This document shows, piece after piece, positions 37,503 to 60,266 of a stretch of DNA of 64,000 bases (its first letter is position 1; the number at the start of each line of letters is the position of its first letter). This DNA is from Altererythrobacter sp. BO-6 (GTDB lineage Bacteria; Pseudomonadota; Alphaproteobacteria; Sphingomonadales; Sphingomonadaceae): NCBI RefSeq assembly GCF_011047315.1, contig NZ_CP049259.1, positions 2,337,001 to 2,401,000 on the forward strand, read 5' to 3'. Both the position numbers and the translations under genes were made by a program. The notes beneath the pieces were generated by a model. The model searched no databases and had not been told where the DNA came from. It saw nothing but the letters and a program-made list of their open reading frames with translations.

Positions 37503-38127
37503 TTAGGCGGCCTCATCCTTTGCAAAACATGGCGGCGAACGAAAAATTGTGCTGGCGCTCTGGTCCAGTCGCAAGAGCCCAATTTCAGCCTCCAGATTGT
37601 TCCCTCGACGTAACAAGGCCTCTGCCTTGACCCACAGGCCAAATGCCGCCGCATGTGCCCTGCCCACATTGTCGGCGAAATGTGGAATTTGCTTTAAGAC
37701 CCGAAAAGCCCCACCCTTCGAGCTCCCTCAGGTAACGCACAAGCGGGCGCAGGCTCGGGTCGCGGGTTGCTAGCAGGCAAGTTTGTCCGGTCAGGCGGGC
37801 GAATCCGATGTAGAAGCCAGCCGGCTGTTCGTCGGTTCCGGGTTTGAGCAGGCCATTCAAGGTTTTCAGCCATTCCGCCAAGCTGGCTGGCGGGGGTGAA
37901 GCTGGAATGTCCATGTCGAATTGGCTGGGTATCCCATTGACCAGCGCGTGCCAGATGGCCTGAGTACGGAAGTTTTCCATGTCCTCGAAATGGTAGGCAA
38001 TCACCGAAGGAGATGTGCCAGCCGCCTTGGCAAAGCCGCGTTGCTTCAAACTCTCGATCCCGGATTGCGAGATGATGCGTGCCGCCTCTTTCAGAAGGTG
38101 CGTAGCGATCGGAGAGTCACTAGCCAT
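37503..38127 (-). pseudogene. TetR-family regulator, C-terminal frameshift
   Basis: The N-terminal half from Met 38127 reads as a TetR-type DNA-binding domain (LLKEAARIISQSGIESLKQR, then GTSPSVIAYHFEDMENFRTQ). After LRPLVRYLRELEG the frame turns to nonsense-like sequence, while the neighbouring frame reads on plausibly (GAFRVLKQIPHFADNVGRAH ... AEALLRRGNNLEAE) to a stop at 37503. A one-base change in the G-rich stretch near 37708-37718 explains both. It may still make a truncated protein. It could once have controlled the palindromic operators further right, but that is only inferred. Confidence 0.65.
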
Positions 38128-38178
38128 GGTGGGCTGTCGGATGGAGAAAGGCTGCGTGTCCAGAATGCTGCTGATGGT

Positions 38179-38586
38179 ATGAACTCTCTGCCTGAGCACT
38201 TAGAGGGGATCATCTACGCAACAGGCGCAGTGTCAGCACTCAACCGGGTCGAAATTCATCCCTCGTTCCAGCACGCAGGTTTGCGCGAGGTGTACCGAAG
38301 GCTTGGCCTTTGCACGCAGGCATCGAGCCCGCTTGGCAGAGGGAAGGACCCAACCGATCCGCGCCTCGCTTCAAGCGACGACAGCCCCGAGGCATCTGCG
38401 GCGAAGGTTATTCTGGCGTGACTGGCGAAACAAGGAGTTTTGCCGGTAGTGAAGTGGAGCCGTGCAGAGCGCATGCGCGAGAATTTGGCTATGCTCGACA
38501 TCGAGCTTTTGCCGGAGGATTTGGAACTTTTGGGCCAGCTAGAGCGCAACGAGAGTTGCTTCGGCGTGGATCCTCGAACTTTCGTA
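38179..38586 (+). pseudogene. Aldo/keto reductase remnant with in-frame stop
   Basis: One frame reads as the C-terminal two-thirds of an aldo/keto reductase: GAVSALNRVEIHPSFQHAGL, QASSPLGRGKDPTD, AAKVILA, then LAKQGVLPVVKWSRAERMRE and LELLGQLERNESCFG. A TGA at 38419-38421 replaces the Trp expected in VILAW. The N-terminal part with the catalytic Asp, Tyr and Lys is missing, so the gene is dead. It abuts the broken TetR gene in the opposite direction. Confidence 0.7.
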
Positions 38587-38622
38587 GGGTCTTATATAAA
38601 ATCAGGCTCGGTCCTCGGCATC

Positions 38623-38835
38623 TTACTCGCCGACGATAAGATTGAGGTCCCTCGCCGCAACCTTCACTCGGGGAGCAGCTTTCTCGCCCAGATCTGCATC
38701 GGTCCAGTCTTGTAGAAGCGTCATCTCGATCTTTATCGGAATCTGCTCCGATGAAATTGTTGCACCATCTTCAATCGCGCAAACGGAACGCTCGGGAAAC
38801 GCACTCGCAACATGGATGTTGATTATCGGGCAATG
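38623..38835 (-). pseudogene. Unidentified C-terminal gene remnant
   Basis: A 70-codon minus-strand frame without a usable start reads as protein-like (IHVASAFPERSVCAIEDG, IEMTLLQDWTDADLGEKA, VKVAARDLNLIVGE, stop at 38623). It is probably the tail of a lost gene. No family is recognised. The rest of 38587-39016 shows no gene. Confidence 0.3.
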
Positions 38836-38952
38836 TTAAGCCGGCCGCGCATAAACCTCGATAGATTCAGTTATATCAGTAGACCGAAAAGCCTTCGATT
38901 TTCTCATCGATGAGCACAGTTGTCAGGCTGCGTGGTCTGTCTATGAGAAGGT

Positions 38953-38979
38953 GGAGGAGGTGGTATCGCCCCCTCCTCC
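38953..38979 (-). terminator. Possible terminator of the TonB receptor gene
   Basis: GGAGGAGG (38953-38960) can pair with CCTCCTCC (38972-38979) about 40 bases past the receptor stop. No U run follows on the minus strand, so it may be only a stabilising hairpin. Confidence 0.4.
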
Positions 38980-39016
38980 GCCTCTGGTATCAGTCTGCGA
39001 CTGTCCGCAATGCACG

Positions 39017-41566
39017 CTAAAACTTGTAACGCGCCTCGACCATGAAGGTCCGGGGCTCGCCCGGAACGGCCGTGTTCACCTGGAAGAGCTGGCCAAGCGG
39101 AACGCCGCCGACGTAGTACAATTCCTTGAACGCATTACGCAGCACACCTGCGATTGACCAGCCTGCCGCGTCGTTTTCAATCCCCACGCGGAAGTTGACC
39201 AAGGTGTAACTCGGCAGAGTTGTGATCGGATCGCGAGGACCTTTTGCCGCCGTCGACACCTGGGTTTGGTGATAGACGTCGCTCCTAAAAGAAAAGTCGA
39301 GAGTGTCGGTCAAAGGGAATTTGACGTCGGCAAAGACGGATCCGGACCAATCGGGGGTATCGGGATAGTTCCCGAACAAAACCGGTGCGGATCCGCCCAC
39401 CGAAACAAGGCCGTCCGTAAACTTGGCATCGGTGTAATTGACCTGCCCGCCCAATTTCAGCCAGTCCGCGGGTGACAGATCCGCGTCAAACTCAAACCCG
39501 CGAACCTCCGCACCCGGCACGTTCACGGTGATAGCTACCGGCGCGCCGCCGCGCAGTGTGTAAGCGACCCGCTGTGCGTTGTCGATCCAGCTCTGATAAA
39601 GAGCGAGGTTGAAGCGATAAGGGATGCCGATATAGCCCTGTTTTTTCAGACCCAGCTCAACATCGGTAACCTTTTCGGTACGGAACGCATTGCCGCCGTC
39701 TTCCCCAAAGCCCGGAACAGGTTTCTGGAAGTAGTTAAAGCCTCCGTGCCGGGTACTGCGGCGAGTGGCCGCGTAAATAAGCGTATCCGGATCGATTTGA
39801 TACTGGAGACCCAAGGTCCAGCTCCACGAACCGAATTTCCGTGTCTGATCGGGATCGTATGTCGCCTGCAAAGCTGGCGGATCCGAGAATGAAAGATCAC
39901 GCGGTAGGTACCGGATATTGACCTTCTCGTCAGTGTATCTCGCGCCAGCGGTGAAGCTGAGTCCCTCGACGCCCGAGATCTCACTTAGGTCAAGCGTACC
40001 CTGTGCGAAGCCAGCATAGGTTTTGTTCGACGTCACCGCCGCATTGATCTGGATCGTGCGGATGATCGGGAAATCGAAAAAGTCGCTTCCGGTTATTGCG
40101 GTGAACTCCTCGTCGGAGAAGAAGATGCCCGCGACATAATCCAGTTGGCCGTTGAAACCCTCACCCAGGATTTGCAGTTCGTTGGAGATAGCCTTGAACT
40201 TGTCGATGCGGCCGTAAGGTTCACCTGCCGCATTGGTTGGGAAGAAGCCATTGTTGTCGATACCGAATGGGACGGCATCGACATCGTTAAAGATAACGCT
40301 CGTCGTATCGATGTAACCAAATACGTTCTTGATCTGAGCGCCTCCGCCAACGTCGATTGTCGTGACGTTTGACACCAGCCAGTTTTCCGCGTCGTAATCC
40401 TGCGGTCCGTCAAGATCGATCGTGTATGGCCCGCGCTCCTGCTGGATGGGGAGGAACTCTGCCAATCCGCCATCGGGCAAGTGCGGGGTGAGCGAACGAT
40501 AGAGCGCGGCGGTCCCGGCGCCCGCATTCGGTGGGCCACCGGCGCCCTCCACGAAGCCGCTGATGATTGCCTCGAAAATCGGTGCGCCGCTTGGAGTGAC
40601 GTCAGTAAGCGCGATCAGAGGGATCGCTCCAGTCGGATCAAGGCTATAGAGGACAGCAGAGGTGGATGAACCGCCTGACTTCAGGTAATCGACCACTAGG
40701 GTGTTTTCGATCCCATCGGTTGGCTGGATCGCCAAGGTCGCTCTTGCGCCGGTGCGATCAACATCGCCAACCCGACATCCCTTCGCTGGTGGAGGCGTTA
40801 CCGGCCCCACGACTGGATCGGATGGAATCGGGAATAAGGGACGCGGCGAGGCACAGAAAGGATGGACGTTTCGCTGGAAACCGTCCCGCTCGTGATGGAC
40901 ACCCGCGAACCGTAACTGGATCGTATCCGCGATGGGCAGGTTAATCGCACCCTCGATATAACGCAGGTCGTAATTGCCGAGTCGGCCCAGCACATAACCG
41001 CCGAAGTCCGAATTTGGCTTTGCGGTAGTCAGAAGTACCGCACCGCCTGTCGCGTTGCGGCCGAACAGTGTTCCCTGCGGCCCCTTCAATACCTGGATCG
41101 AGGCAAGATCATAGAATGCCGACGAACCGCCGATGCCCCCTGCGATGGGCACTTCGTTAAAATAAGGTAGAACGCCAGGACGGATATTGCTGAACACATC
41201 CAGCGATTGACCGCGAATCGAATAGTTGAGGTTGTTCGAGTTCTGCGAGGCGCGGACGGTCACACCGGGCAGCGCTACCTGTATATCGGATTCCGAGACA
41301 ATTGCACGCTCGGCAAGAGTGTCTGATGTAAGCACGCCTACCGAAACGGGGGTGCGCTGGAGCGACTCTTCGCGCCGCCGGGCGGTGACGAGAATATCGC
41401 CCGCCGCGTAGTCAGAGGAACTCACCTTGTCCGGTTCCTCGAGCGACATTTCGGTCGCGTCAACTACCGGCCCATCGACGACAGTGTCGTTCGAATCCTG
41501 CGCCCATGCTGGAGTTGCAGCCACGATCGCCGTAGCTCCGGCGAGAAGTACAAAGCGCTTATTCAT
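39017..41566 (-). CDS. TonB-dependent outer-membrane receptor
   Basis: 849-residue outer-membrane transporter. Signal peptide MNKRFVLLAGATAIVAATPAWAQ, then plug domain: TonB-box-like DILVTARRREESLQRTPVSV, VQVLKGPQGTLFGRNATGGA-type motif (here SIQVLKGPQGTLFGRNATGG), followed by a beta-barrel ending in PRTFMVEARYKF, with the terminal Phe used by the BAM machinery. The start at 41566 follows GGAGGA; upstream in-frame starts lack this. Sphingomonads use such receptors for bulky organic nutrients. Same strand as the SnoaL, dehalogenase-like and DUF2834 genes. Confidence 0.93.
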   Translation of the reverse strand: MNKRFVLLAGATAIVAATPAWAQDSNDTVVDGPVVDATEMSLEEPDKVSSSDYAAGDILVTARRREESLQRTPVSVGVLTSDTLAERAIVSESDIQVALPGVTVRASQNSNNLNYSIRGQSLDVFSNIRPGVLPYFNEVPIAGGIGGSSAFYDLASIQVLKGPQGTLFGRNATGGAVLLTTAKPNSDFGGYVLGRLGNYDLRYIEGAINLPIADTIQLRFAGVHHERDGFQRNVHPFCASPRPLFPIPSDPVVGPVTPPPAKGCRVGDVDRTGARATLAIQPTDGIENTLVVDYLKSGGSSTSAVLYSLDPTGAIPLIALTDVTPSGAPIFEAIISGFVEGAGGPPNAGAGTAALYRSLTPHLPDGGLAEFLPIQQERGPYTIDLDGPQDYDAENWLVSNVTTIDVGGGAQIKNVFGYIDTTSVIFNDVDAVPFGIDNNGFFPTNAAGEPYGRIDKFKAISNELQILGEGFNGQLDYVAGIFFSDEEFTAITGSDFFDFPIIRTIQINAAVTSNKTYAGFAQGTLDLSEISGVEGLSFTAGARYTDEKVNIRYLPRDLSFSDPPALQATYDPDQTRKFGSWSWTLGLQYQIDPDTLIYAATRRSTRHGGFNYFQKPVPGFGEDGGNAFRTEKVTDVELGLKKQGYIGIPYRFNLALYQSWIDNAQRVAYTLRGGAPVAITVNVPGAEVRGFEFDADLSPADWLKLGGQVNYTDAKFTDGLVSVGGSAPVLFGNYPDTPDWSGSVFADVKFPLTDTLDFSFRSDVYHQTQVSTAAKGPRDPITTLPSYTLVNFRVGIENDAAGWSIAGVLRNAFKELYYVGGVPLGQLFQVNTAVPGEPRTFMVEARYKF

Positions 41567-41643
41567 TTGAAATCCTCCACCCATTTCCGACCACCGAACC
41601 GGCGCGGAACCTCCGTTTTCAGCCCGGTCACAAGGGGGGCACA

Positions 41644-41708
41644 TTGACACCCTATAGCCCGGCGTGAGGAATATGCTAAACTAGTTTATCAAGTAGTCAA
41701 CTGGTTTA
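41644..41708 (-). promoter_or_regulatory. TonB receptor promoter with palindromic operators
   Basis: On the minus strand TTGACT (41695-41700) and AGCATA (41672-41677) are 17 bases apart. The perfect palindrome TAAACTAGTTTA (41677-41688) lies between them. A related TCAACTGGTTTA (41697-41708) is exactly 20 bases away, overlapping the -35. Downstream is CTATAGGGTGTCA (41645-41657), shared with etfB. The geometry suits a TetR-type repressor. Confidence 0.5.
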
Positions 41709-41729
41709 TTTTTATGTGGCGCTGTGGGC

Positions 41730-42188
41730 TTATCTCCCGAAAGCCGGATCTTCCCAAAAATGCGCGATTTCAACTGGATACCCGAGTTGCTGGACTACAT
41801 GAATCTGGTCACTGTGCACGATTTCCCGCGCGATTTTGCCATTGCGGTAGATGTGATAGGTCATGCCATTGGTCACGATCTCGCGGTCGTCCTTGACCGG
41901 CAGGCCGAAGAACGTGCCGCAGTGCGTCGCCTTCCAGCTGAACAGAATAAGACCCGCGTCTTTATTGCCGATGTACTCGTCGACAGAGAACTCGTGAATT
42001 CCGAAGCCGCTCGACGGGTCCTGGTTGGCAAATGGTAGGAATGCCCGGCGCAGAGCGGCCTTGTCATTCCTTATGAACTGCTCGAGCGGATAATCGGCGA
42101 AGTCGAAATCTTCCGCGTAATACGATACGGCCTCGTCCGCACTCCGGCTGAACGATTTGATCCAACGGGTCACATGCTCAAGGTTCAT
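41730..42188 (-). CDS. SnoaL/NTF2-like protein
   Basis: 152-residue protein of the cone-shaped NTF2-like fold. Such proteins are often isomerases, hydratases or dehalogenases acting on ring compounds. The pattern SFSRSADEAVSYYAEDFDFADYP at the start and THCGTFFGLPVKDDREIVTN in the second half is family-like. The start at 42188 follows GGAGAG; an earlier in-frame start is less likely. It lies between the receptor and the dehalogenase-like gene. The reaction is not deducible. Confidence 0.75.
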   Translation of the reverse strand: MNLEHVTRWIKSFSRSADEAVSYYAEDFDFADYPLEQFIRNDKAALRRAFLPFANQDPSSGFGIHEFSVDEYIGNKDAGLILFSWKATHCGTFFGLPVKDDREIVTNGMTYHIYRNGKIAREIVHSDQIHVVQQLGYPVEIAHFWEDPAFGR

Positions 42189-42264
42189 TTCAATCTCTCC
42201 GATCGGGGGCGGCGCCATATGCCGGGCTTGGAATGAGTGGACGGCGTAGGCTGTCCTCTCTGAG

Positions 42265-43002
42265 TCAGGGATATGCCCCTGCCGCGAAGTTGATGTACTG
42301 GGCTGTCAGCGGCATGGCCTTCTGGCTCGCGAGGAGGGCAATAAGCGCACCCAATTCATCGGGTCGTCCGAGACGGCGCAACGGAACCTCGTTATCGAGT
42401 TTTGGCTTGAAGCCAGGCATCAATTCTTCCCAGCCATCGGGAAAATAGGTCGGGTTCTTCATCCAGTTGGGTCCGACGACGTTCACCTGGATGTTTTCTG
42501 GCCCGACCGCTTGGCCCAGTGAAATCGCATAGCCGGTGGCTGCGGCGCGCGCGGCCCCATAAATTCCGACCTGAGCCATAGGAAACCGCGCTGTCGTCGA
42601 CGTCACGAAGATAATGGCGCCGGAACCTCGCTCACGCATGTGGGGCAGTACTGCCTGACTCAACTCGAACGGATATACAACGCCTTGTTCCAGCACCTCC
42701 CGCAGCTCCGACGCGCTTGAGCCGTCAATCGGCCGGATCGGATCGGGGACGATGTCGTTGGAGATCAGAGCGTCTATCCTGCCGAACCGCTTGAGCACCG
42801 CTGCCACCAGCGCAAGCGGGTCCGTTTCGTAGAATGTGTGAAGGTCGGCACGCCCGGCGACGAAAGAGGCCGCCTCGTTCGGGTCAACGAACGAGGGGTC
42901 AGCGGCGGCGACAATCCACTTATCCTCATGCAGCCCCATGGTCGCGCCGGGCCCCGCATAACCCGTCGCGTTGGTAACCAAGCTTACCTTTTGGTACATC
43001 AT
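42265..43002 (-). CDS. Halohydrin dehalogenase-like SDR protein
   Basis: 245 residues, short-chain-dehydrogenase fold but with the two sequence signatures of halohydrin dehalogenases. T10-X4-Y15-X-G17 (VTNATGYAG) stands where NAD-dependent members have their glycine-rich motif. S135-X12-Y148-X3-R152 (Ser-Tyr-Arg triad) has Arg in place of the usual Lys. SNDI at 81-84 and VVGPNWMKNPTYFP near 175-188 also resemble HheC. Such enzymes release halide from vicinal halohydrins to form epoxides, without NAD(P)H, and can open epoxides with azide, cyanide or nitrite. A second ATG at 42999 is better spaced from GGAGG. Activity is inferred, not shown. Confidence 0.8.
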   Translation of the reverse strand: MMYQKVSLVTNATGYAGPGATMGLHEDKWIVAAADPSFVDPNEAASFVAGRADLHTFYETDPLALVAAVLKRFGRIDALISNDIVPDPIRPIDGSSASELREVLEQGVVYPFELSQAVLPHMRERGSGAIIFVTSTTARFPMAQVGIYGAARAAATGYAISLGQAVGPENIQVNVVGPNWMKNPTYFPDGWEELMPGFKPKLDNEVPLRRLGRPDELGALIALLASQKAMPLTAQYINFAAGAYP

Positions 43003-43064
43003 TTTTCCTCCATGCCACCGTCCTGGCGCCGCTCTACAAACGCATTGGCGTCGGGACCAACCGC

Positions 43065-43418
43065 TCAGACCGAAGACTGGTCGCGACGATCAATGAATCT
43101 TTCGCGCACAACCAAATACACCGGGAATGCCAGCGACACCCCGACATAGGAAAAGAATACAAAGAAGATGCCCCACCTGTATCCCAGCCCAATCCTGCCG
43201 GCGTCCACAACGACCCAGATCATAAATGTGACCCACATGAAGAGGATGTCGAGGCTCAGAAATGCAGCAGTTCCCCCGTGAACGACGGCGTCGCCGAAGA
43301 AGTCTAACGGGTTAAGAATATTTCCACCATCGCGCATCCAGTCGATCGCATGCGGCCAGGTCAGGAAAAACGCTGCGACGCCCAACGCGAGGTAGACCGC
43401 GTGCCTGAAGTCATCCAA
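43065..43418 (-). CDS. DUF2834-like four-helix membrane protein
   Basis: 117 residues with about three to four membrane segments (AVYLALGVAAFFLTWPHAID, AAFLSLDILFMWVTFMIWVV, WGIFFVFFSYVGVSLAFPVY). The NPLDFFGDA stretch and the end AFPVYLVVRERF match the DUF2834 pattern. Function unknown. First gene of the minus-strand set; 62 bases separate it from the dehalogenase-like gene. Confidence 0.7.
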   Translation of the reverse strand: MDDFRHAVYLALGVAAFFLTWPHAIDWMRDGGNILNPLDFFGDAVVHGGTAAFLSLDILFMWVTFMIWVVVDAGRIGLGYRWGIFFVFFSYVGVSLAFPVYLVVRERFIDRRDQSSV

Positions 43419-43767
43419 TTTTTCTCTCCCACCGTGACTCGCGCACCCCTATCCGGCCTACGCGATGGCTTCCTGACTTTAGTCTCGGAATACAGCAGAC
43501 CTTAAATTCGTCAACCTCTTTATCATTTCGCCCAGTCGGAGAGACGCGCTAACAGGCCACATTCTTGGCCTTTTCACCCAATGCGCGAGGCCGACGGCCC
43601 GAGACCCCTCCGGGTACCGCATTAGCTTTATCGCCAAGGTAGATAACTAGTTTATATTTATGGAGTCGGCATGGTGATGGCAGTTCTTCGAGAAAAGGTG
43701 GCCGGCGGTTAGTGCGCAGCGCCGACACCTTGCGCTCGCCGGCGGTCGGTGTCTTAGGAGGCTCTTC
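43419..43767. other. Non-coding stretch with one operator-like site
   Basis: About 350 bases between the DUF2834 gene and the next small ORF. It holds ATAACTAGTTTA (43643-43654) and GCCGGCGGT repeated near 43700 and 43737. It probably includes the promoter of the minus-strand set, but no clear -35/-10 pair was found. Confidence 0.4.
43643..43654. promoter_or_regulatory. Operator-like palindrome
   Basis: ATAACTAGTTTA matches the TonB-promoter palindrome TAAACTAGTTTA at 10 of 12 positions, with a perfect AACTAGTT core. Confidence 0.4.
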
Positions 43768-43893
43768 ATGGCCGTTGTCCGATTACGCGCCGTCCAATTG
43801 CTGTTCGTTCTCGATGTGAAAAGCCGGGTAGAGCAGCCTTCGGTCCTTCAGGAACGAATACGCCATCTGGCCCCCAATCTCGGGTGCTCCTAA
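43768..43893 (+). CDS. 41-residue small ORF with strong ribosome site
   Basis: ATG 43768 has AGGAGG (43756-43761) six bases upstream, the best ribosome binding site in this stretch. The product begins MAVVRLRAVQLLFVLDVKSR. No family is recognised. It may be the broken start of the decayed acyltransferase region that follows. An overlapping 68-codon minus-strand frame (43783-43989) is equally unassigned. Confidence 0.25.
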   Translation: MAVVRLRAVQLLFVLDVKSRVEQPSVLQERIRHLAPNLGCS

Positions 43894-44040
43894 ACGGAAG
43901 TGAAAGGGAAGGCCCGAAAGTATTGCCGAGGGCTTATCCCCTGTCCGACGCGGTTCATGATCGATCTGCGCGCGGTTTGATCGCTTCATAATGAGGTTGG
44001 GTTACCAAGGCCTGCGCCAAGACGGATCGGACGTGGCGCG

Positions 44041-44745
44041 ATGCGCGAAACCTTCCGTCGCTTTCCCACGATCGTGCTGTTCATGCATCAGACCTTTGTC
44101 GACGGCACGGCGCCGACGCTCTATTTCTATCACAACGATCTGCCGATGCCGCACACCATCGGCGGCATCAACATGGCCTTCTTTGGACTTGGGTTCCCTT
44201 GTCGCCGTTCAGGTTCGATCTTCAATCGTTGGGCGTTCCAGAATAACCCGGTCTATAAACTCGTTCTTTGCCGGCACCTTGCCTATCTTCTCGAGAATCG
44301 TTTTCCGATGTCTTGGGCGTTCTAGGGCAGGCGCTCACGCCCTGGAAAGCTGATGCCGCCCCCTTAGGGATTGCTCAAGTACGTGCTGGAAGCCGCGCAC
44401 TATTGAGGGATCGAAAACCTCCAGATTGCCTCCTTCGTCACCAGCATGGACCCGATCCACGATGTCGACGAATATGTGCTTGAGCAGCGCGGGCGGCTGA
44501 AGAAGCCTAAGTCGGCAATCTGGTTGCTCGGATACCTAGGCAGCTTGCGTCGGCCGACGGGACAAATGCGAGTCGATCTCGGGCAGCCAGTAGTGCTGAG
44601 TAAAGCACCCGAGCCAAGCGACCGGATGCCGCTCGCGAGAGTCGCCTTTCAGATCGCGATCGAGGCCAACCGGACTACCCCGCTTACTGTCTCGGGCCTG
44701 ACCTACCTGAGCCTGCTTGGCTCGGCGCAACCCGGCGTGACCTAG
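44041..44745 (+). pseudogene. PlsB-like glycerol-3-phosphate acyltransferase remnant
   Basis: One continuous frame of 235 codons reads as an acyltransferase broken by three stops. Motif I is FMHQTFVDG (H-X4-D), then GGINMAFFGLG, RRSGSIFNRWAFQNNPVYKL, and SWAF-stop-GRRSRPGKLMPPP, where TAG (44323-44325) stands for the Glu of the EGGRSR motif. Further stops follow MPPP and HY. The end DVDEYVLEQRGRLKKPKSAI, RRPTGQMRVDLGQPV is typical of the PlsB C-terminus. All stops are in one frame and of different kinds, so decay rather than recoding is likely. Confidence 0.7.
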
Positions 44746-44753
44746 CGGCGGTC

Positions 44754-45357
44754 ATGGCTCTGCTGATTGGGATGATGGGCGATCTCCTTACCTTGGTGCG
44801 CGCGGCTCGTTCGGAAAATCCACGAGTGCCGCTAGGCCTATTCGAACACTCGATGGGCTCGGTGATTGTTCAGGCTTTCCTCCTCGATTACCCGCATCTT
44901 GTCGACGCGCTGGTGCTTTCGGGCTCCGCCGCAGTCGATGTGGTGGCGGCCAAGGGCGCGGAAACGCCTGACCGATTTGGTGCGATGAACACTCCGTTTG
45001 AGCCCGGCCCTACTGAGTTCGATTGTTTGAGCCGCAACCAGGCCGAGGTGGAACGCTAAGCTGCCGACCCGCTGCGCGGCTTTTCGATTCAGTCGGGATC
45101 GATGGAGGAACTGTTCGGGCAGGGCGAGACGCTTGCCGATGCCGTACGGATCGCCGCCTTGCCGAAAGATCCGCCGATCTGGATAGCGTCGGGCGATGCC
45201 GATCCCCTGCTCCAAATGCTCGGCGCGCTGCAGCCGCTGATCGAACGATATCGTGCGGCCGGTCTTGCAATCGAGAGCCGAATCTACCTGCGCGTGCCAC
45301 GACATTCTCAACGAGGCCAACAGAGAAGATGTAGTCGCCGATCACTGCGGCGTACGC
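44754..45357 (+). pseudogene. Monoacylglycerol lipase-like hydrolase remnant
   Basis: The frame from 44754 reads as an alpha/beta hydrolase lacking its N-terminus: LLTLVRAARSENPRVPLGLF, then EHSMGSVIVQAFLLDYP, where the nucleophile elbow GHSMG has become EHSMG. TAA at 45057-45059 interrupts before AADPLRGFSIQSGSMEELFG. PPIWIASGDADPL holds the acid residue. The catalytic His region (HDILNEANREDVVAD) is in another frame near 45300. Several lesions make it inactive. It follows the acyltransferase remnant and may have worked with it on lipids. Confidence 0.65.
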
Positions 45358-45446
45358 AGGCATAGTTCGATGACATCAGGATCATCGCCCGACAGCGGCA
45401 GAGCCAACGAGGGCGGCTTGCTGCTGCCGAGATCTCGGAAAATAGC

Positions 45447-45475
45447 TTGCCAAACTAATAAACTTGTTTATTATA
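45447..45475 (+). promoter_or_regulatory. Calycin operon promoter with palindromic operator
   Basis: TTGCCA (45447-45452) and ATTATA (45470-45475) are 17 bases apart. Between and partly over them sits TAATAAAC-TT-GTTTATTA (45456-45473), an 8-bp-arm palindrome whose core TAAACTTGTTTA matches the TonB operator at 11 of 12 positions. It is about 120 bases before the first gene of the operon. Confidence 0.55.
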
Positions 45476-45594
45476 TTGCTTGCGCATATCGGTTGGGTGC
45501 GTCCGGCTGGATGTGATCGGAGAGGACGGATGATCGAAAAACCAACGATTGGCTGGTGCAGCATTCGGGCTGGCGATTCTCGGGGAGCAACCCG

Positions 45595-46566
45595 ATGATC
45601 ACCGCAGAGGATTATCGTTTCCACGAACGCGATCCAGGCGACGATACTTGGACCGAGACCATCTTCCAGATCTTCTCGGTGCCCGAAGCGGCGATCAGCG
45701 GCAATCTTTACGTGCTATCGCGCCCCAATCTCGGCGTGACCCACTGCTCGGTCGAGATCCATCAAGGCTTGTGCCTCCATCCCTGGCAACTCCATCACAA
45801 CGACGCCCAGATGCATCTGCGTTGTCCGGACGACTATTCGGATTTCACGCTTTCCAATGGCCTGAGCTTCAAGGCGCACAACGAACGCGAGCACGAGTGG
45901 CGTTATGAATCGCGCGACGGAGTCTGTGCGCTCGAACTTGATTACACTGCGATCTGCGAACCGACCGACGCGCGTGACCCTGCGCAGGTGCCGCAAGCCG
46001 GTGACAGCAAGGTCCAAGGATACAGTGGGTGGAACAACGGCCATTTGGAAGGCAAGGGCATGGTCAAGGGAACGCTGCGCTTGCGCGACAAGACCTATCG
46101 GGTCAATTGCGTGGAAGGGGTCAACAAGAGTTGGGGCCCGCGCAACGATTGGGGCAACAAGGGCGCGACCTGGGTACATGTCGACCTTGGCGAAGGGATG
46201 CGCGCCTTCATGGTGTTGGACATCGACTTCAAGGACCGCGCAATGGTCTATGGGGGACTTCGCTACGGTTACGTCCTAGTGAATGGTGAACGCCGACCGC
46301 TGCTGTCCGGCGAACTGATCGCCAAACGCTACGCGATGCTGGTTACGAGCGCCAACGCCCGGTTCGAGGACGATCGGGGCGAAGTCTACTCCGCGCGAGG
46401 CACAACAATCGCCGCAGGTCCGTGGTATAATTTCAATCCTTCGAGCTGTGGTTATCAAGTGCTCCTGCGCTGGGAAGGAAAGCAGGGCGTGGGGCACGGT
46501 CACATTGCCGATTTCGTCGGGATGTATGCACTTTCCCAGGCGATGGCCGACGAACTCTATGAATGA
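45595..46566 (+). CDS. AttH/CrtC-like calycin-fold protein, copy 1
   Basis: 323 residues. Starts MITAEDYRFHERDPGDDTWT with GGGGAG seven bases upstream. The motif NKSWGPRNDWG (about residue 180) matches the D-x-S-W-G-x-R signature of AttH/hydroxyneurosporene-synthase-type calycins, and ETIFQIFSVPEAAISGNLYV is shared with copy 2. Members of this superfamily bind or hydrate isoprenoid-like molecules; the reaction here is unknown. First gene of a plus-strand operon of six. Two paralogues lie downstream. Confidence 0.75.
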   Translation: MITAEDYRFHERDPGDDTWTETIFQIFSVPEAAISGNLYVLSRPNLGVTHCSVEIHQGLCLHPWQLHHNDAQMHLRCPDDYSDFTLSNGLSFKAHNEREHEWRYESRDGVCALELDYTAICEPTDARDPAQVPQAGDSKVQGYSGWNNGHLEGKGMVKGTLRLRDKTYRVNCVEGVNKSWGPRNDWGNKGATWVHVDLGEGMRAFMVLDIDFKDRAMVYGGLRYGYVLVNGERRPLLSGELIAKRYAMLVTSANARFEDDRGEVYSARGTTIAAGPWYNFNPSSCGYQVLLRWEGKQGVGHGHIADFVGMYALSQAMADELYE

Positions 46567-46576
46567 GGAGCGGGGA

Positions 46577-47812
46577 GTGAGCCAAGCTGGCGAATATCAA
46601 ATCGTCACGGAGAAACAGCGGCGCTTGCCCGACGAGGAAACGATCGCGAGCATTCGCGCTCGATACCCTGTCGAAGCCGAACACGACGCTGTCTATTCGC
46701 GTAAGATGAGGCGTCGGCATGGGCCAGGCTATCAGGGCGTGACTCTCGACCTTCTCGTAGAAGGGAGCAAAGCGCTTATAGAATCTGAGGTCGGCGGCGC
46801 GGTCTCGATCGAGAATGCCCGTTGGTTATCGGGCGGCGCGTCAAAGCTGCAGGTTCTGTTCGAGCTCGTCTGGCGCGGCGAAAACGGGGCCGGCGAGCGG
46901 CGTGACACGATGGTCCTGCGCATGGAGCCGGCGGCATCGGTGACCGAATCGAGTCGCAACCGCGAGTTCGAGGTGTTGCGCGCGGTAGAAGGGATCATCC
47001 CTGCGCCAAAGCCTTACTGGGTCGACGCCGATGCCAAGTATCTTCCCTACCCGGCGATGATCTACGACTTCGTCACCGGCGCCGCCAAGCCATCTTATGA
47101 CTCAGGCAAGGTATCGGGTCTTGGACAAAACTTCGGACCAGAGTTGCGGACAAAGCTGGCACCTGATTTCGTCCGGATGCTCGCTGCCCTTCACACCATC
47201 GACGTTTCCAGTCTGGATGGGCTCGAGCATTTCGAGCGGCCCGAAGTCGGATCCAACGCATCGGTGATCCGCCAGGTCAACGCCTACCGCAGGGTGTGGG
47301 AGGAAGATCGGGTGGAAGAGGAGCCGTTGCTCGAAGTGGTGTATCGCTGGTTGGTCCAGAACGCACCGCCGCTCGATCATGTCTCGATCGTGCATGGTGA
47401 CTATCGGAGTGGTAACTTCCTCTTCGACGAAGATGCCGGGCGGATCACCGCTTGGCTGGATTGGGAGGGCGCAACCCTAGGGGACCGCCACCAGGATCTG
47501 ACTTATGCCGGCATGCCGTCATTCTCACATTTCGCCGAAGACGACAGCACCTTGCTCGCCTCGGGAATGATGTCAGAACCTGATCTCTATGCCGCGTATG
47601 AAAAGGCATCGGGATTGCCCGTCGACCCCGCGCGGCTGGCATACTATCAGATCTTCAATCGCTATCTGCTATGCGTGCTTACACTGGCCGCCTCGGCGCG
47701 GGCTTCGCGGATCGGCGGCACCCACCAAGACGTGCTGGTGAACTACGTGGTGGGGGTCGGATACGTAGGCCTCGCCGATCTGCACGAGGCCTTTCTGGAG
47801 GAGGTACGATGA
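46577..47812 (+). CDS. APH-family phosphotransferase
   Basis: 411 residues with a protein-kinase-like fold of the aminoglycoside phosphotransferase type. The catalytic loop is IVHGDYRSGNFLFDEDAGRI (His-Gly-Asp, Asn) followed by AWLDWEGATLGDRHQDL (the Mg-binding Asp). Such kinases in catabolic operons phosphorylate small hydroxylated molecules, often hydrophobic alcohols. The GTG at 46577 has AGGAG six bases upstream; ATG 46559, overlapping the previous gene, is an alternative. It overlaps the next gene by four bases. Confidence 0.85.
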   Translation: MSQAGEYQIVTEKQRRLPDEETIASIRARYPVEAEHDAVYSRKMRRRHGPGYQGVTLDLLVEGSKALIESEVGGAVSIENARWLSGGASKLQVLFELVWRGENGAGERRDTMVLRMEPAASVTESSRNREFEVLRAVEGIIPAPKPYWVDADAKYLPYPAMIYDFVTGAAKPSYDSGKVSGLGQNFGPELRTKLAPDFVRMLAALHTIDVSSLDGLEHFERPEVGSNASVIRQVNAYRRVWEEDRVEEEPLLEVVYRWLVQNAPPLDHVSIVHGDYRSGNFLFDEDAGRITAWLDWEGATLGDRHQDLTYAGMPSFSHFAEDDSTLLASGMMSEPDLYAAYEKASGLPVDPARLAYYQIFNRYLLCVLTLAASARASRIGGTHQDVLVNYVVGVGYVGLADLHEAFLEEVR

Positions 47813-48303
47813 ACCTCGATTTTGACGTCCAGCTCCAGGTTGCGTTGCGTGCGCTCACCGATGTCGTTGCGCCGGCGCTTGGCGAGGGGGCCGAAAAACA
47901 CGTTGTCGAGCAGCTCCACCTTGCGGTGGCCACGATCTCCTTCGTCAAGACCCGGCTGCCAGAAGCGCGCCGCTATTATCGAATGGAGCTTCGCCATTTC
48001 ATCGACCTCGCGGAGGCAGCGGCTCGGATGACTGGCGAGGATGCCGCACTCGATGCGGCGGTCCGCGACGGAGAGGCTGCGCTTCGCGATGCGGAGGCCG
48101 ACATCGGCAACTATATCGAGATCACTCGCCGCCTACGGGAAGAGGTGGCCGCGCTCGCCAGCCGGACGGAGGGCGAAGATCGTGCCGCCCTGGACCGGCT
48201 CGTGCTCGACACGAGCGGCGAATTGTTGGCGCAGTACCGCCAATGGGCGTTACCTTTCGGACTAGAGCCCAAGCCAGAGGAATTGCCAGCGCCCGCGTGG
48301 TGA
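47809..48303 (+). CDS. Unassigned helical protein coupled to the kinase
   Basis: 164 residues, predicted almost all helical, with charged heptad-like runs (ALRDAEADIGNYIEITRRLR). Starts at ATG 47809, overlapping the kinase stop. No family is recognised. Small helical partners next to APH-type kinases are known in other catabolic operons, so it may be an accessory subunit; no catalytic residues are evident. Confidence 0.7.
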   Translation: MNLDFDVQLQVALRALTDVVAPALGEGAEKHVVEQLHLAVATISFVKTRLPEARRYYRMELRHFIDLAEAAARMTGEDAALDAAVRDGEAALRDAEADIGNYIEITRRLREEVAALASRTEGEDRAALDRLVLDTSGELLAQYRQWALPFGLEPKPEELPAPAW

Positions 48304-48316
48304 TGGCGGAGACGGC

Positions 48317-49330
48317 ATGATCACCGATCGAGATCTTGAATTCCATCACGCGGATTCACCTGCATTCGACCATGCGGAAACGCTATTCCTGATCTTCAGC
48401 GTTCCGGAAGCGCGGATAAGCGGCAATGCCTATGTGCTGTGCCGCCCCAACGCCGGAGTGTGCCTGTCATCCATCTACGTTCACCAGGGCTTCCATGCCA
48501 ATGCCTGGACGGCAGACTATTCCGACGCGCCCATGCATGTGAAATGCCCGGAAACGATGGCCGATTTTACCTTGTCTAATGGTCTGTTCGTGCGCGGCAG
48601 CAACAATGCTCGTGACTACTACATGCGGTATGAAGGGCGCGATGACATTTGCCGGTTCGAACTCGATTTCAAGGGCCTGATGGATCCGTTCGATCCGCTC
48701 GACCCCGCGCAGAACCCCATGCTTCAGGTTTTCGACAATGATCCCGAAGCATCGACCGGCGCAGGCGATTCCTGGACAAAGGGGCATTACGATCTTGTCG
48801 GCCGGATCACCGGAGAGATTTCGCTCTACGGCCAGACTTTCGCCATCGATTGCGTGGACGGGCTTGACCGCAGCTGGGGGCCGCGCGCCGAATGGAACAG
48901 TGCGCCGGTTTCGTGGATGCACATGACCTTCGGTGACGATCTGGCGTTCCACCTTGTGGTGAGCCTAGACATAGTCGGTGGGCAACAGGTCTATACCACT
49001 TTCCGCTTCGGTTATGCCGTGGTGGATGGTCAATCCTGTGCCATCGTGGCCGCCGAAGTGGAGGCAGAGAGTCTTGGCATGCTGGGGATACATCGTGTCA
49101 TCAGGCTGACTGACGAGCACGGTCGGAAATGGGAAATGACGGGTGCTGCCATTGCCGCCGCACCGTGGCATTCGGCCTATCCCAGCTTCATTTCCTTCCA
49201 GAGCCTCTACCGCTGGACCATGGGCAAGCGCGTCGGCTTCAGCAACGTTACCGATGTGATCGGCGTGACGACACTATCGCGCAAACTCTCGCGCCTTGCA
49301 CAGGCTTCACCTGACACAGGACAACAATGA
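48317..49330 (+). CDS. AttH/CrtC-like calycin-fold protein, copy 2
   Basis: 337 residues, clearly paralogous to copy 1: ETLFLIFSVPEARISGNAYV near the start, VHQGFHANAW, DFTLSNGLFV and the signature DRSWGPRAEW (about residue 195). The last third (AAPWHSAYPSFISFQSLYRW) matches AGPWYNFNPSSCGYQVLLRW of copy 1. The start at ATG 48317 follows GGCGGAG. The two may form a pair acting on one substrate. Overlaps copy 3 by four bases. Confidence 0.75.
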   Translation: MITDRDLEFHHADSPAFDHAETLFLIFSVPEARISGNAYVLCRPNAGVCLSSIYVHQGFHANAWTADYSDAPMHVKCPETMADFTLSNGLFVRGSNNARDYYMRYEGRDDICRFELDFKGLMDPFDPLDPAQNPMLQVFDNDPEASTGAGDSWTKGHYDLVGRITGEISLYGQTFAIDCVDGLDRSWGPRAEWNSAPVSWMHMTFGDDLAFHLVVSLDIVGGQQVYTTFRFGYAVVDGQSCAIVAAEVEAESLGMLGIHRVIRLTDEHGRKWEMTGAAIAAAPWHSAYPSFISFQSLYRWTMGKRVGFSNVTDVIGVTTLSRKLSRLAQASPDTGQQ

Positions 49331-50301
49331 TGGTTTTCGAATCGATCAAATCCACGATCCCTGCGTTCGATATTGCGCATGACAACCGTCACAAATTGCG
49401 TTCGGAGCCGCACTCTCGTGAAGCGATTGCGCTCATGCTGCAATTGCCCGAGCGCGGGATCGCCGGATTCATCTATCCCTGGATCAATGCCGATGGCACG
49501 GCTGGAGCATCGATCAGCCTCTTCGGCCCGGGTCTTCCAGAAGCGATCGAGGAGCGCTTCGAAGCGGAGCCGGTTCCGGCCGAGATGGATTTCTATGACT
49601 GGCAAGTGGCTGGCCTTACCTACAGGATCGATGAGCCCCACCGCAGCGCCGATTACAGATTTGAAGGCGAACGGGTGAAGATCGCCTGCCGTTTCGAAGC
49701 CTTCCATCCGGTCTTTCCCTTCAGCGCCCACCCTGACGGTTGTCCACAATACTATGCTGACGATCGCACTGAACAGCATGGCTGGATCCGCGGGCAGATG
49801 GAAATCGATGGCGAGGCGTTCGATTTCGAAACGCTGGGCCAGCGCGACCATGCCTGGGGCAACCGGATCTGGGGGCTGAACCAGCACTATAAGTGGTTTC
49901 ATGCTACCACGCCGACGCAGGCGGTGCATTTTTTCGAGCTGCACTCGTTCGGGGCGGTGCATCTGCGCGGCTTCGTGTTCCGCGATGGTGCCATGGCGCA
50001 GGTAACCCGCGTCAGTCACGAATTCCACTATGATGAAGAGATGCACCACGATGTCATCAATGCCACCGTGCATGACGACCTGGGTCGTTCGACGCTGATC
50101 GAATGCGAACGCTTCGCCAAGTTCGAATTTCGCGCCGATCCGATGATCGCGCTCAAGGAATCGGCAATCCGCGTACGGATGGGCGAAGAAGAGGGAACTG
50201 GCTGGTGCGAGTTCTGCTGGAACCGGAACTATCTTGACTTTGCGCGGCAGCACCTGGCCCAGTTCCAACCCTATCCGCAATGCAGTAGCTATCGCGAGTG
50301 A
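49327..50301 (+). CDS. AttH/CrtC-like calycin-fold protein, copy 3
   Basis: 324 residues, more distant from copies 1 and 2 but with the same signature in QRDHAWGNRIWGLNQH (about residue 178) and a similar two-lobe layout. It contains HPDGCPQYYADDRTEQHGWI and ends NYLDFARQHLAQFQPYPQCS. It may have a different substrate or supply a subunit. It overlaps the SMR gene by four bases. Confidence 0.72.
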   Translation: MMVFESIKSTIPAFDIAHDNRHKLRSEPHSREAIALMLQLPERGIAGFIYPWINADGTAGASISLFGPGLPEAIEERFEAEPVPAEMDFYDWQVAGLTYRIDEPHRSADYRFEGERVKIACRFEAFHPVFPFSAHPDGCPQYYADDRTEQHGWIRGQMEIDGEAFDFETLGQRDHAWGNRIWGLNQHYKWFHATTPTQAVHFFELHSFGAVHLRGFVFRDGAMAQVTRVSHEFHYDEEMHHDVINATVHDDLGRSTLIECERFAKFEFRADPMIALKESAIRVRMGEEEGTGWCEFCWNRNYLDFARQHLAQFQPYPQCSSYRE

Positions 50302-50615
50302 GTGCTGGCTGGATCTACCTGAGCATCGCGATCCTGTTTGAGGTCGCCGCCACATCTGCGCTGAAAGCTAGCGACGGGATGTCGCGGCTGACTCCCACCA
50401 TCCTAGCGCTCGTAGGCTATGGCATCGCCTTTTTTTGCCTTGCCCGCGCGATGCGCGAGGTACCATTGGGCGTCGCCTATGCGGTTTGGTCGGGCGTAGG
50501 GATCGTCGCGCTCGTGGTGATAGACTATCTATTCTACAGCAAAGGCTTCGACATACGCGAAACGATCGGCATCGCGATGGTACTGGCCGGGGTATTGGTC
50601 ATCTATTCGGCTTGA
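50298..50615 (+). CDS. SMR-family small multidrug/compound exporter
   Basis: 105 residues, four membrane helices, GTG start. The conserved Glu that couples protons to substrate is in LFEVAATSALKAS (about residue 14). The end SKGFDIRETIGIAMVLAGVL is typical of EmrE/QacE/SugE types. As last gene of the calycin operon it may export a toxic intermediate. Its end overlaps the convergent phosphatase gene by 17 bases. Confidence 0.88.
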   Translation: MSAGWIYLSIAILFEVAATSALKASDGMSRLTPTILALVGYGIAFFCLARAMREVPLGVAYAVWSGVGIVALVVIDYLFYSKGFDIRETIGIAMVLAGVLVIYSA

Positions 50616-51375
50616 GCGCATGCGGGACGAGATAGGCTCGGCGCAATCGGGTAATGAGATCTTCGTCGATCCCGGCATGGCGACGCAGGTAATCCGCTGT
50701 CCCGTCAGACTGGGTGGAGATGACAGCTAAGGCCGCCTCGAGGTACTCCTCTCGCACGCCGCACATCTCAGTTATAACGTCCTGCGGAAGTGTCGACATC
50801 GCCGCATGCCCTGATAGCGCCGACAGGAGATATTCGATCCGGGCTTGCCCGCCCGCATTTGTGAGCAAGTATTCGCGCTTGATCGCCTCTGGTTCAACCT
50901 CCAGGAGCGACTGAAACAGCGCCACCGCCAGCCCGGTACGGTCCTTGCCGGCAACGCAATGCACCAGGGTTGGGCCGTCCGCGTCGGCGAGGGAATGGAG
51001 ATAGCTGCCGGTCATCCGAAGGAAGTGCGGCGCGCAAATCAGCTCGCGATACACCTCCCTCATGGCCGCCCGCGCCTCTGATGCCCGGGTCAGGCCAAGG
51101 AACCGCTCCATGGCGTGCGGGACAACACCCTGATCGTCGTGAGCTGCGATGCGAAGGCCGGAGAAAGGCGGCTGCGACGTTGGTGTTGCGGGGACTTCGT
51201 GTCGGTTGCGGAAGTCGATAATCCTGCGAAGGCCTAGCCCCTCCACTCCGGCCAGCGCATCATTCTCCGCGCGGTCGAGTTCCGCCGAACGGTAGAGGCG
51301 ACCGGTCATAATTTGCGCGCCGTTTACGGCCGAATAGCCGCCGTAATCGCGCAGGTTTAAACGCTCCGACAGCAT
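50599..51375 (-). CDS. Tyrosine phosphatase-like protein
   Basis: 258 residues of the bacterial Tyr/Ser phosphatase family (DUF-type PTP). The P-loop HCVAGKDRTG (C-X5-R) is intact and preceded by GLRRIIDFRNRHEV, typical of this group. The start at 51375 follows AGGAAAG; a GTG at 51411 is in frame but lacks a site. The partner or substrate is unknown; some members act on phospholipid or small-molecule phosphates, which would be interesting beside the APH-type kinase. Confidence 0.85.
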   Translation of the reverse strand: MLSERLNLRDYGGYSAVNGAQIMTGRLYRSAELDRAENDALAGVEGLGLRRIIDFRNRHEVPATPTSQPPFSGLRIAAHDDQGVVPHAMERFLGLTRASEARAAMREVYRELICAPHFLRMTGSYLHSLADADGPTLVHCVAGKDRTGLAVALFQSLLEVEPEAIKREYLLTNAGGQARIEYLLSALSGHAAMSTLPQDVITEMCGVREEYLEAALAVISTQSDGTADYLRRHAGIDEDLITRLRRAYLVPHALKPNR

Positions 51376-51415
51376 GGCTGCTTTCCTGTTTGGTCTATCC
51401 TGCAAGGACACCGGA

Positions 51416-52855
51416 TCAGGCCATTACGTATAGGGATTTGGTGTTTTGATATGCGCCGATCGCTTCAGGCCCGAATTCGCGCCCCAGGCCGCTTGCCTTG
51501 ATGCCGCCGAAGGGTGCGCCAAGCGAGGGCATATAACCGTTGATACCCACCGTGCCACTGGCAACGCGGCGCGCTACGGAGAGCGCGTGCTCACTATCCG
51601 TGCTGAAGACCGATCCGCCAAGGCCATAGCAGCTGTCATTGGCAATGCGGATCGCTTCATCTTCGCCATCATAGGGGATGACCGCCAGTACCGGCCCGAA
51701 AATCTCCTCGCGGGCGATCACGGCATCGTTGCTGGCATCGGCGAAGATGGTCGGTTCGACAAAGAAGCCGCGGTTGAGGCTGGCGGGCACGCCTCCACCT
51801 GCGACCAGCTTTGCCTCGCCTTTGCCCTTCTCGATATAGCCGAGCACTCGGTCCCGATGCTCGCGTGAGGCCATTGGCCCGACATGCGTGTTCGGATCGA
51901 GAGCGTCACCGATCGTCAACGAGTTAACGAAACCGGCCAAACCCTCAACTACTTCATCATATCGAGACTGGGGAGCAAGGATACGGGTGCCGTTGTAGCA
52001 GGCCTGGCCGTTGTTGAGCATGGAGGCAAAAGGAACCGCCTGGAGAAAGGCTCCCAGATCGGCATCTTCCAGCAGAATCGCGGCCGACTTGCCGCCTAGT
52101 TCCAGCGTGACCGGGCGCAGCAATTCACCGCAGGCTGCAGCAATCCTGCGCCCAGCCCCGGTCGAGCCGGTGAAAGCCACCTTGTCTACATCCGGGTGGG
52201 AGACGAGATAGGCACCTGCCTCGCGATCGGCTGCCACCCAGTTCAGCACGCCAGGCGGAACGCCCGCTTCGTCCGCCGCCTCGGCCAACAAATAGCTGTC
52301 GAGTATGGTTCCGGGAGACGGCTTGATCACTACCGTGCACCCGGCTGCCATGGCCGGAGCAATCTTGTTCATCGCCAATGTTACAGGGAAATTCCACGGC
52401 ACGATCGCAGCCACCACCCCCAAAGGCGTGCGCTCGACCAGCGTCTGCTTTCCCATCTGTGATGGCCGTATGTCGGGCTCTGCCGGCGCCTTCGCGAGTT
52501 CGGTGTAGTATTGGAGCACGCCGGCCGCGAACTGGCCTTCCAATTGCGCACTGATCCCGATCGGCATGCCGTTTTGTATACTTACCGCCCTGGCGATCTG
52601 CTCTTCCCGGCTGGCAACGGAGCTCAGAAATTGCTCCATTATCTGCGCCCTTTCAGCCCGCGCCATGTGAGGCCAGATGCCCCCGTCAAAAGCGGAGCGC
52701 GCTGCGGCAACAGCAGCATCGATATCATCATTCTTGCCTTCAGGTACCGTCCCAATCACCTCCTCGGTTGAGGGGTTCACCAACTCGAATACGTCGGTGC
52801 TGCTTGGCTCCACCCATTCCCCGCCGATGTAAAAACTGTCCCGCGAGTGCTGCAT
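51416..52855 (-). CDS. Aldehyde dehydrogenase
   Basis: NAD(P)-dependent enzyme of 479 residues. Catalytic Glu in VTLELGGKSAAIL, NAD motif FTGSTGAGRRIA, catalytic Cys in NNGQACYNGTR. The start MQHSRDSFYIGGEW at 52855 follows AGAGGAAG; longer frames are less supported. It is divergent from an alcohol dehydrogenase, and the pair could take an alcohol to an acid, which the CoA ligase downstream would then activate. The substrate is not evident. Confidence 0.92.
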   Translation of the reverse strand: MQHSRDSFYIGGEWVEPSSTDVFELVNPSTEEVIGTVPEGKNDDIDAAVAAARSAFDGGIWPHMARAERAQIMEQFLSSVASREEQIARAVSIQNGMPIGISAQLEGQFAAGVLQYYTELAKAPAEPDIRPSQMGKQTLVERTPLGVVAAIVPWNFPVTLAMNKIAPAMAAGCTVVIKPSPGTILDSYLLAEAADEAGVPPGVLNWVAADREAGAYLVSHPDVDKVAFTGSTGAGRRIAAACGELLRPVTLELGGKSAAILLEDADLGAFLQAVPFASMLNNGQACYNGTRILAPQSRYDEVVEGLAGFVNSLTIGDALDPNTHVGPMASREHRDRVLGYIEKGKGEAKLVAGGGVPASLNRGFFVEPTIFADASNDAVIAREEIFGPVLAVIPYDGEDEAIRIANDSCYGLGGSVFSTDSEHALSVARRVASGTVGINGYMPSLGAPFGGIKASGLGREFGPEAIGAYQNTKSLYVMA

Positions 52856-52912
52856 TATCGACTTCCTCTTTTTAGGCATTCTGTGCGCTCCGCCGCTTGC
52901 CATACGCAGCGG

Positions 52913-52960
52913 CTAAAACATTTTAGTAAATAGGTTGACCTTTTTTTTGGAATGGGTCAA
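52913..52960. promoter_or_regulatory. Divergent promoter region of aldehyde and alcohol dehydrogenases
   Basis: CTAAAA-CA-TTTTAG (52913-52926) and TTGACC-N14-GGTCAA (52935-52960) are inverted repeats in the 155-base gap between the two genes. The first weakly resembles the AAAC-N2-GTTT operators elsewhere. Which regulator binds is unknown. Confidence 0.4.
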
Positions 52961-53010
52961 TCTCAAACTCGGGAAAGCGCTTAAACCGCTTTGAAAGGAG
53001 AGGATTCGGC

Positions 53011-54111: not shown

Positions 54112-54113
54112 CC

Positions 54114-54911
54114 ATGCCAATAGAAACCTTCAAATCCATCCGGCTGACGCAGGAAAACGGCGTCGCCCAGCTGTTGTTGTGCCAGGGCCAGCGAGGAAAT
54201 CCGGTCGATGCAGAGATGTGTGCCGAGCTTTGCGAGGTGGCCACCTTGCTGGCCCACGATCCTGGCGTGCGGGCGGTGCTTCTCACTGCGGAAGGCCCGA
54301 ATTTCTCCGTGGGCGGCGATGTTTCCATGTTCGTGGAATATCTCGACACCCTACCCAGCCAGATAGCGCGGTGGACCGCCGACCTGCATGTGGGTCTGGC
54401 GCGGCTCCAGCGCATGGATGCCCCAATCGTGGTTGCTGTCCAGGGAATGTGCGTGGGCGGCATGGTGGGGATCGCGGCGGGAGCGGACATCGTAATCGCA
54501 AACTCGGAGGCGCGCTTTGTCGCGGCCTATCCGAAGATCGGCTTTTGCTGCGATGCCGGCACTTCTGTGATGCTGTCGAGGCGAATGGGACTAAGCAAGG
54601 CACGCAAGTTCCTGCTCCTCAACGAAACCCTGCAGGCTGATGCAGCTGCCTCTGCAGGTCTGGTCGATGAAGTGGTCGATCCGCTACGACTAAACGAGCG
54701 GGCAGCGCATGTCGCCGCCCAGCTTGCGGAAGGGCCAACCCGCGCCTTCGGCGAAATCCGGCGGCTGATGCTGAGTGCCGCAACCGAGCCGCTTGAGACC
54801 CAGCTCGAGCTGGAAGCACAAGGCCTTTCGCGAATTGCTGCTACGCATGATGCGCGCGAAGGGTTGTCAGCGTTTGCGGAGAAGCGTTCCGCGAAATTCG
54901 AGGGGAGATGA
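54114..54911 (+). CDS. Enoyl-CoA hydratase/isomerase family protein
   Basis: 265 residues, crotonase fold. The oxyanion-hole motifs are NFSVGGDVSMFV and VQGMCVGGMVGIAAGADIVI. The first hydratase Glu (usually in GGGxE) is not seen, and the later position reads CDAGTS with Asp, a pattern found more in isomerases than in hydratases. It is therefore better called a crotonase-family isomerase-like enzyme. Four bases separate it from the CoA ligase. Confidence 0.85.
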   Translation: MPIETFKSIRLTQENGVAQLLLCQGQRGNPVDAEMCAELCEVATLLAHDPGVRAVLLTAEGPNFSVGGDVSMFVEYLDTLPSQIARWTADLHVGLARLQRMDAPIVVAVQGMCVGGMVGIAAGADIVIANSEARFVAAYPKIGFCCDAGTSVMLSRRMGLSKARKFLLLNETLQADAAASAGLVDEVVDPLRLNERAAHVAAQLAEGPTRAFGEIRRLMLSAATEPLETQLELEAQGLSRIAATHDAREGLSAFAEKRSAKFEGR

Positions 54912-54915
54912 ACCG

Positions 54916-56475: not shown

Positions 56476-56512
56476 TCGCCAGGCGCTTGCCTTCTTGGCT
56501 CGATCTGGGCGA

Positions 56513-57529: not shown

Positions 57530-57531
57530 GC

Positions 57532-59339: not shown

Positions 59340-59340
59340 G

Positions 59341-60255: not shown

Positions 60256-60266
60256 GGCAAATCCCT

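Follow-up and report, generated by a model that had tools for sequence, protein, structure and literature searches.

Halohydrin dehalogenases and the window gene

Halohydrin dehalogenases (HHDHs) are few in number and diverse in sequence, they find use in biocatalysis, and little is known of what they act on in nature. The substrates on which they are usually tested are probably not the natural ones (PMC11976700), and enzymes classed as HheA10 and HheA13-A15 share just 27-42% identity with HHDHs whose activity is confirmed (PMC4989007). Here, a candidate enzyme of this kind is described from Altererythrobacter sp. BO-6, encoded in a stretch of 64,000 nucleotides (contig NZ_CP049259.1, positions 2,337,001 to 2,401,000), referred to below as the window. 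The gene lies at 42265..43002 on the minus strand, and its product is, judging from sequence and a modelled fold, very probably a cofactor-independent HHDH of the short-chain dehydrogenase/reductase (SDR) superfamily.

Among the described enzymes, HheA (4z9f, 1zmo) is the best sequence match and has the same length, the same catalytic triad, the same SND and GPN..NPTYFP stretches and likewise no C-terminal extension, but it is only 37.8% identical and has Phe in motif 1 where the window protein has Tyr. On a Microbacterium plasmid, the HheA gene and an epoxide hydrolase gene have four bases in common, whereas the window gene has no such neighbour. HheC (1pwx; the letters compared are those of the 9ldq variant) shares TN at motif 1, SNDI, the GPN of the halide loop and Ser-Tyr-Arg, but is 35.0% identical, and the window protein lacks its Trp-bearing C-terminal extension and carries a natural Tyr at the Phe12 position. 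The 6a41 'dehalogenase' is the top Foldseek match, at 37.9% identity, but occupies a separate tree branch. Similarly, the G-type HHDHs (5o30/6i9v, 8h8y, 7wkq) share the HHDH fold and motif 2, but are 31-32% identical and form a separate branch.

The reading frame runs from an ATG at 43002 to a stop at 42265 and encodes 245 residues, while the plus-strand frame of the same interval is interrupted by stops; an earlier, sequence-only reading of this DNA had found a real gene with the right limits, to which the minus strand (43002 to 42265) must now be assigned. A GGAGG lies just 5' of two consecutive ATGs, and since most homologues in the clade described below have 244 residues, the second ATG, which would give a protein of 244, may be the start. 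A scan for promoters and terminators gave a result near chance.

Placement in the family

The ten best sequence matches in the PDB were all HHDHs. Identities were 37.9% to 6a41, 37.8% to HheA, 35.0% to HheC, 32.9% to 7b73, 31.4% to HheB and 31-32% to the G types; the low overall identity to known enzymes that had been anticipated was thus borne out, at 31-38% for the eight solved HHDHs aligned and 34% for 8xxb. Pfam assigns the protein to SDR families only (PF13561, PF00106). Of 176 NCBIfam models matched, the 25 best shown were all under their cut-offs (the top one 89.7 bits against 215), and such matches were not counted as evidence for a family.

A tree of 73 rows was built from 46 homologues, the window protein among them, an outgroup of 15 SDR homologues and one SDR encoded in the window, nine references of solved structure, the plasmid HheA from Microbacterium and an HHDH from a genome of the host family. 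It took 22 of the 48 clade members, with few reference rows for subtypes B, D and G and none for HheA3-A15, HheE or HheF, and the branches of HheB and several SDRs drew a warning about their length. HHDHs separated from SDRs with 100/99 support, with the window protein on the HHDH side and outside the 16 SDR rows; placement among NAD(P)-dependent SDRs, which the sequence-only reading had named as contrary evidence, was therefore not found. The protein's own clade was supported at 100/100, three further homologues (P0049-P0051) joined it at 93/87, these together joined HheA and a group of five (P0052-P0056) at 95/88, and HheC came next at 93/81. In this tree the clade lies on the A/C side of the HHDHs.

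Assignment to an established subtype is less clear-cut. Subtypes B, D and G form separate branches, with HheB, 7b73 (presumably HheD2) and 8xxb together at 100/100 and the three G-type references together at 100/100. The last residue aligns to HheC 244 of 254, so that the C-terminal extension with the active-site Trp of subtype C is missing. With HheA and others the protein groups at 95/88, yet within its own 100/100 clade, in a tree drawn without HheA3-A15. The clade may be either a subtype of its own or a section of the A type, which is loosely drawn in the literature.

The monomer model from AlphaFold is confident (pLDDT 94.8), has the SDR Rossmann fold, and matches A- and C-type HHDH structures and 6a41 ahead of any reductase, with 6a41 as the top Foldseek match. 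The 50 rows of VIA-align include no B-, D- or G-type HHDH, an absence that does not count against those types.

Motifs and active site

Both motifs by which HHDHs are recognised are present exactly as the sequence-only reading had given them. Motif 1, T-X4-F/Y-X-G near the N-terminus, is T10-N-A-T-G-Y15-A-G17 (42952..42975, minus strand) and would form the nucleophile (halide) pocket that replaces the SDR glycine motif; motif 2, S135-X12-Y148-X3-R152 (42547..42600, minus strand), would supply the catalytic Ser-Tyr-Arg triad, both sets of coordinates being calculated from residue numbers. Shuffling the protein sequence 20,000 times produced motif 1 within the first 40 residues in 183 cases, motif 2 at any position in 416 and the two together in five. 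The nucleotide-binding pattern TGxxxGxG, whose presence would have spoken for a reductase, was not found in the protein, and two of its glycine positions are occupied by N11 and Y15.

The predicted resemblance to HheC at SNDI and around the halide pocket also held, with SNDI and the GPN of the halide loop both present. T10, G17, N82, D83, T134, S135, Y148, R152, G177, P178 and N179 are common to the protein, HheC and HheA, the shared active-site residues carrying the HheC number plus three. Y15 corresponds to Phe in HheA and wild-type HheC. HheB and HheG have Tyr naturally at the HheC Phe12 position, and in HheC the engineered F12Y exchange raised the melting temperature, the enantioselectivity and the activity towards several substrates, but lowered activity with glycidyl phenyl ether (PMC11976700).

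Among the 48 clade members listed (P0001-P0048), motif 2 is present in all and motif 1 in 45; of the other three, P0035 and P0040 are shorter and P0032 has a different N-terminus. By eye, the first 25 residues of P0032 look like the N-terminus of a nitronate monooxygenase and not like that of an HHDH, through either a fusion or an assembly error. At sixteen positions, including R90, G107, H121, W191 and E192, at least 95% of the clade carries a residue that none of the ten compared references has.

Several points weigh against assignment as a dehalogenase. Identity to the solved HHDHs aligned does not exceed 38%, and identity alone would not decide the family, because a classical SDR (P0070) reaches 34.0%. 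In Foldseek one FabG outranks the HheG chains, which are intermixed with reductases from rank 17, and FabG-type structures lie just about 3 Z units lower in the structure alignment. Several residues on the pocket side, namely W180, M181 and some within 85-89 and 139-142, are not those of HheC and HheA, and the locus has no epoxide hydrolase neighbour of the kind seen beside the plasmid HheA. General SDR profiles match and reductases have the same fold, and the protein might on these grounds be an NAD(P)-dependent SDR of the ordinary kind whose Arg is accidental and whose glycine motif is altered; this reading was rejected on the PDB sequence ranking, the tree and Foldseek, and with Tyr15 in place of a motif glycine and the 25 best-shown of the 176 NCBIfam matches far under their cut-offs it is very improbable.

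Membership of the HHDH branch is by itself no proof of activity, because seven relatives inside it (P0057, P0058, P0060, P0061, P0064, P0066 and P0069) have the catalytic Tyr replaced. By eye the replacement is Pro in six and Ala in P0069, motif 1 is kept in six of the seven, and three carry Paraburkholderia, Burkholderia or Trinickia names; possibly these are non-dehalogenating relatives of HHDHs. Their existence is what could be said for the window protein being a pseudoenzyme, a non-catalytic relative kept for another role, but with motif 2 intact in every listed clade member this is scarcely to be expected. The motifs, the modelled fold, the tree placement and the missing nucleotide motif support the candidate HHDH assignment made from the sequence.

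Distribution of the clade

The homologue search found 178 proteins, of which the best 120 were listed. Forty-seven relatives (P0002-P0048), most of them full-length, are 62-87% identical to the window protein and come from the sources lgn, ena and jgi, with one (P0029) from ncbi; P0028 lies on a 2.5-Mb contig. Across 397 genomes of the host family, host included, a search at E 1e-30 gave two matches, the host and one other genome (G382), so that no clade member was found in any of these genomes but the host. The match in G382 is HheC-like, with 35% identity to the window protein. This gene (L006, contig 9, 52-777) lies near a contig end and by eye equals the 9ldq variant except at three engineered sites, that is, it looks like wild-type HheC.

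A broader profile applied to 396 genomes of the order at 1e-40 gave 16 matches; the host scored 417 bits and the remaining 15 scored 140-217 bits, and the best of the latter (G416, partial), the sole one compared further, is 35.6% identical. Among 72,556 plasmid records searched at 1e-20 the only match was the Microbacterium HheA (37%), and a scan of genome contigs gave one relative at 31%. No description of the clade was found in the open-access literature searched for HHDH with Erythrobacter, Sphingomonadales, haloalcohol or alphaproteobacter. An HHDH 'from an Alphaproteobacterium', possibly a relative, is reportedly the subject of a 2019 paper in Catal. Lett.

Genomic setting and neighbouring genes

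The host had been described as a photosynthetic bacterium, a fair description given that the window encodes a magnesium chelatase, a NifH/FrxC-type protein (these presumably being BchH, BchL and the like) and a PUCC protein. The HHDH gene belongs to a lower-GC3 stretch with acyl-CoA degradation genes (37585..64000) that extends past the window as far as genes for a recombinase and an integrase. GC at third codon positions (GC3) is 0.64-0.77 in the open reading frames picked from 37.6 kb on and 0.77-0.86 at 30.6-37.4 kb; these frames were picked mechanically, and a few earlier in the window are equally low. The stretch encodes a TonB receptor, SnoaL, HHDH and DUF2834 proteins, three DUF7064 proteins, an APH-type kinase, aldehyde and alcohol dehydrogenases, an enoyl-CoA hydratase, an acyl-CoA ligase, an acyl-CoA dehydrogenase, MaoC proteins, an HpcH-type lyase and a thiolase. 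Further genes of this sort lie past the window and lead up to a serine recombinase and a tyrosine integrase (L038). Those NCBIfam models that pass their cut-off in the stretch are broad (a thiolase and a CoA-ligase model) and name no substrate.

In three genomes of the same genus, about 18 kb after etfA are mutually collinear and do not match the later genes of the window; in the host, that collinear stretch adjoins a second etf copy instead, which suggests that the etf pair of the window arose by duplication and that the genes following it were acquired. The two etfBA copies (window 35671-37458 and L039 7721-9513) are 88% identical in DNA, and the etfA match is split in two in the ancestral-neighbourhood copy and unbroken in the copy beside the island. 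A 405-base repeat, 82% identical, lies near both ends of the lower-GC3 stretch (window 38181-38585 and L038 10237-10641); the far copy overlaps an aldo/keto reductase gene, and the copy in the window an apparent fragment of such a gene. Two short open pieces at 44446-45059 resemble parts of a glycerol-3-phosphate acyltransferase and an alpha/beta hydrolase and are probably gene remnants.

The immediate neighbours are as the sequence-only reading had them and all lie in one direction, on the minus strand: a TonB-dependent receptor (39017..41650) downstream of the HHDH gene, a SnoaL-like protein (41730..42188; 152 residues from the start that fits most homologues) and a DUF2834 protein (43065..43418). 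The SnoaL-like protein matches PF07366/PF12680, with TIGR02096 as the nearest NCBIfam model, below cut-off. Its identification as a limonene-type epoxide hydrolase found no support (the best PDB match had E 0.11, and the Pfam families are those just given), and the genome's two matches to the limonene epoxide hydrolase family lie elsewhere. No EHN-type epoxide hydrolase was found in the genome at E 0.001, in a search blind to other epoxide hydrolase types.

Co-occurrence was assessed indirectly, by looking for contigs of the same size among 68 entries of the HHDH list (P0002-P0069) and the best 120 of 232 DUF2834 homologues. Eleven of the 68 HHDH contig sizes recur among these DUF2834 homologues, with the source label agreeing in ten, whereas 2000 trials with jittered sizes averaged 0.94 recurrences and gave 6 at most; DUF2834 homologues thus seem to share contigs with the HHDH clade. 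For SnoaL homologues, two of 11 match an HHDH contig size, and the size 7827 is common to HHDH, DUF2834 and SnoaL. A strict partnership with HHDH is weakened by a genome of another genus (G152), where a SnoaL gene (56%, one internal stop) adjoins a DUF2834 gene (59%) with no HHDH between them. Past that DUF2834 gene come an open reading frame with no Pfam family and a TonB-receptor-like one, and on the other side one that by eye resembles a flavin monooxygenase. In the host family, host included, SnoaL occurs in 2 of 199 genomes and DUF2834 in 6 of 199.

Proposed function and significance

By the family mechanism, Ser135 and Tyr148 would hold a vicinal haloalcohol by its hydroxyl group, Tyr148, with a pKa that Arg152 lowers, would take the proton, and the oxygen would displace the neighbouring halide to give an epoxide; in the reverse direction, epoxides would be opened by small anions (PMC4989007). 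The halide would leave into a pocket formed by Thr10, Tyr15 and Gly17 and the Pro178-Asn179-Trp180-Met181 loop. In the cell, the enzyme probably serves the degradative island. As a conjecture, the TonB receptor might take up a substrate on which the HHDH acts, followed by some step carried out by the SnoaL-like and DUF2834 proteins.

The fold, triad and anion pocket could also serve a native reaction other than dehalogenation, for example epoxide opening or rearrangement or another small-anion elimination in the catabolic island, with halide activity incidental; this is compatible with HHDH activity in vitro. Such a role would fit the general acyl-CoA degradation genes of the stretch, the SnoaL-like and DUF2834 neighbours in place of an epoxide hydrolase, and the 15 genome matches to one haloalkane dehalogenase model (NF002938), none over cut-off and with 11 of 14 control genomes also matching. 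However, the protein shares its triad and core pocket residues with enzymes that release halide, and a non-dehalogenating role is rather unlikely, if worth keeping in view.

The window protein, from its sequence and modelled fold, is a member of a little-described branch of the known HHDH family. More tentatively, it is possible that the clade of 48 listed clusters, the window's included, is a separate subtype with its own native role, island-borne and acting with DUF2834 and in some cases SnoaL-like proteins on a natural halohydrin or epoxide. If so, this role would contrast with the pollutant-degrading pair of HHDH and epoxide hydrolase known for the family. The clade offers new enzymes to test, with intact catalytic residues and a natural Tyr at the position of HheC F12Y, and the likely partner gene would give a genetic handle on the role of HHDHs in nature.
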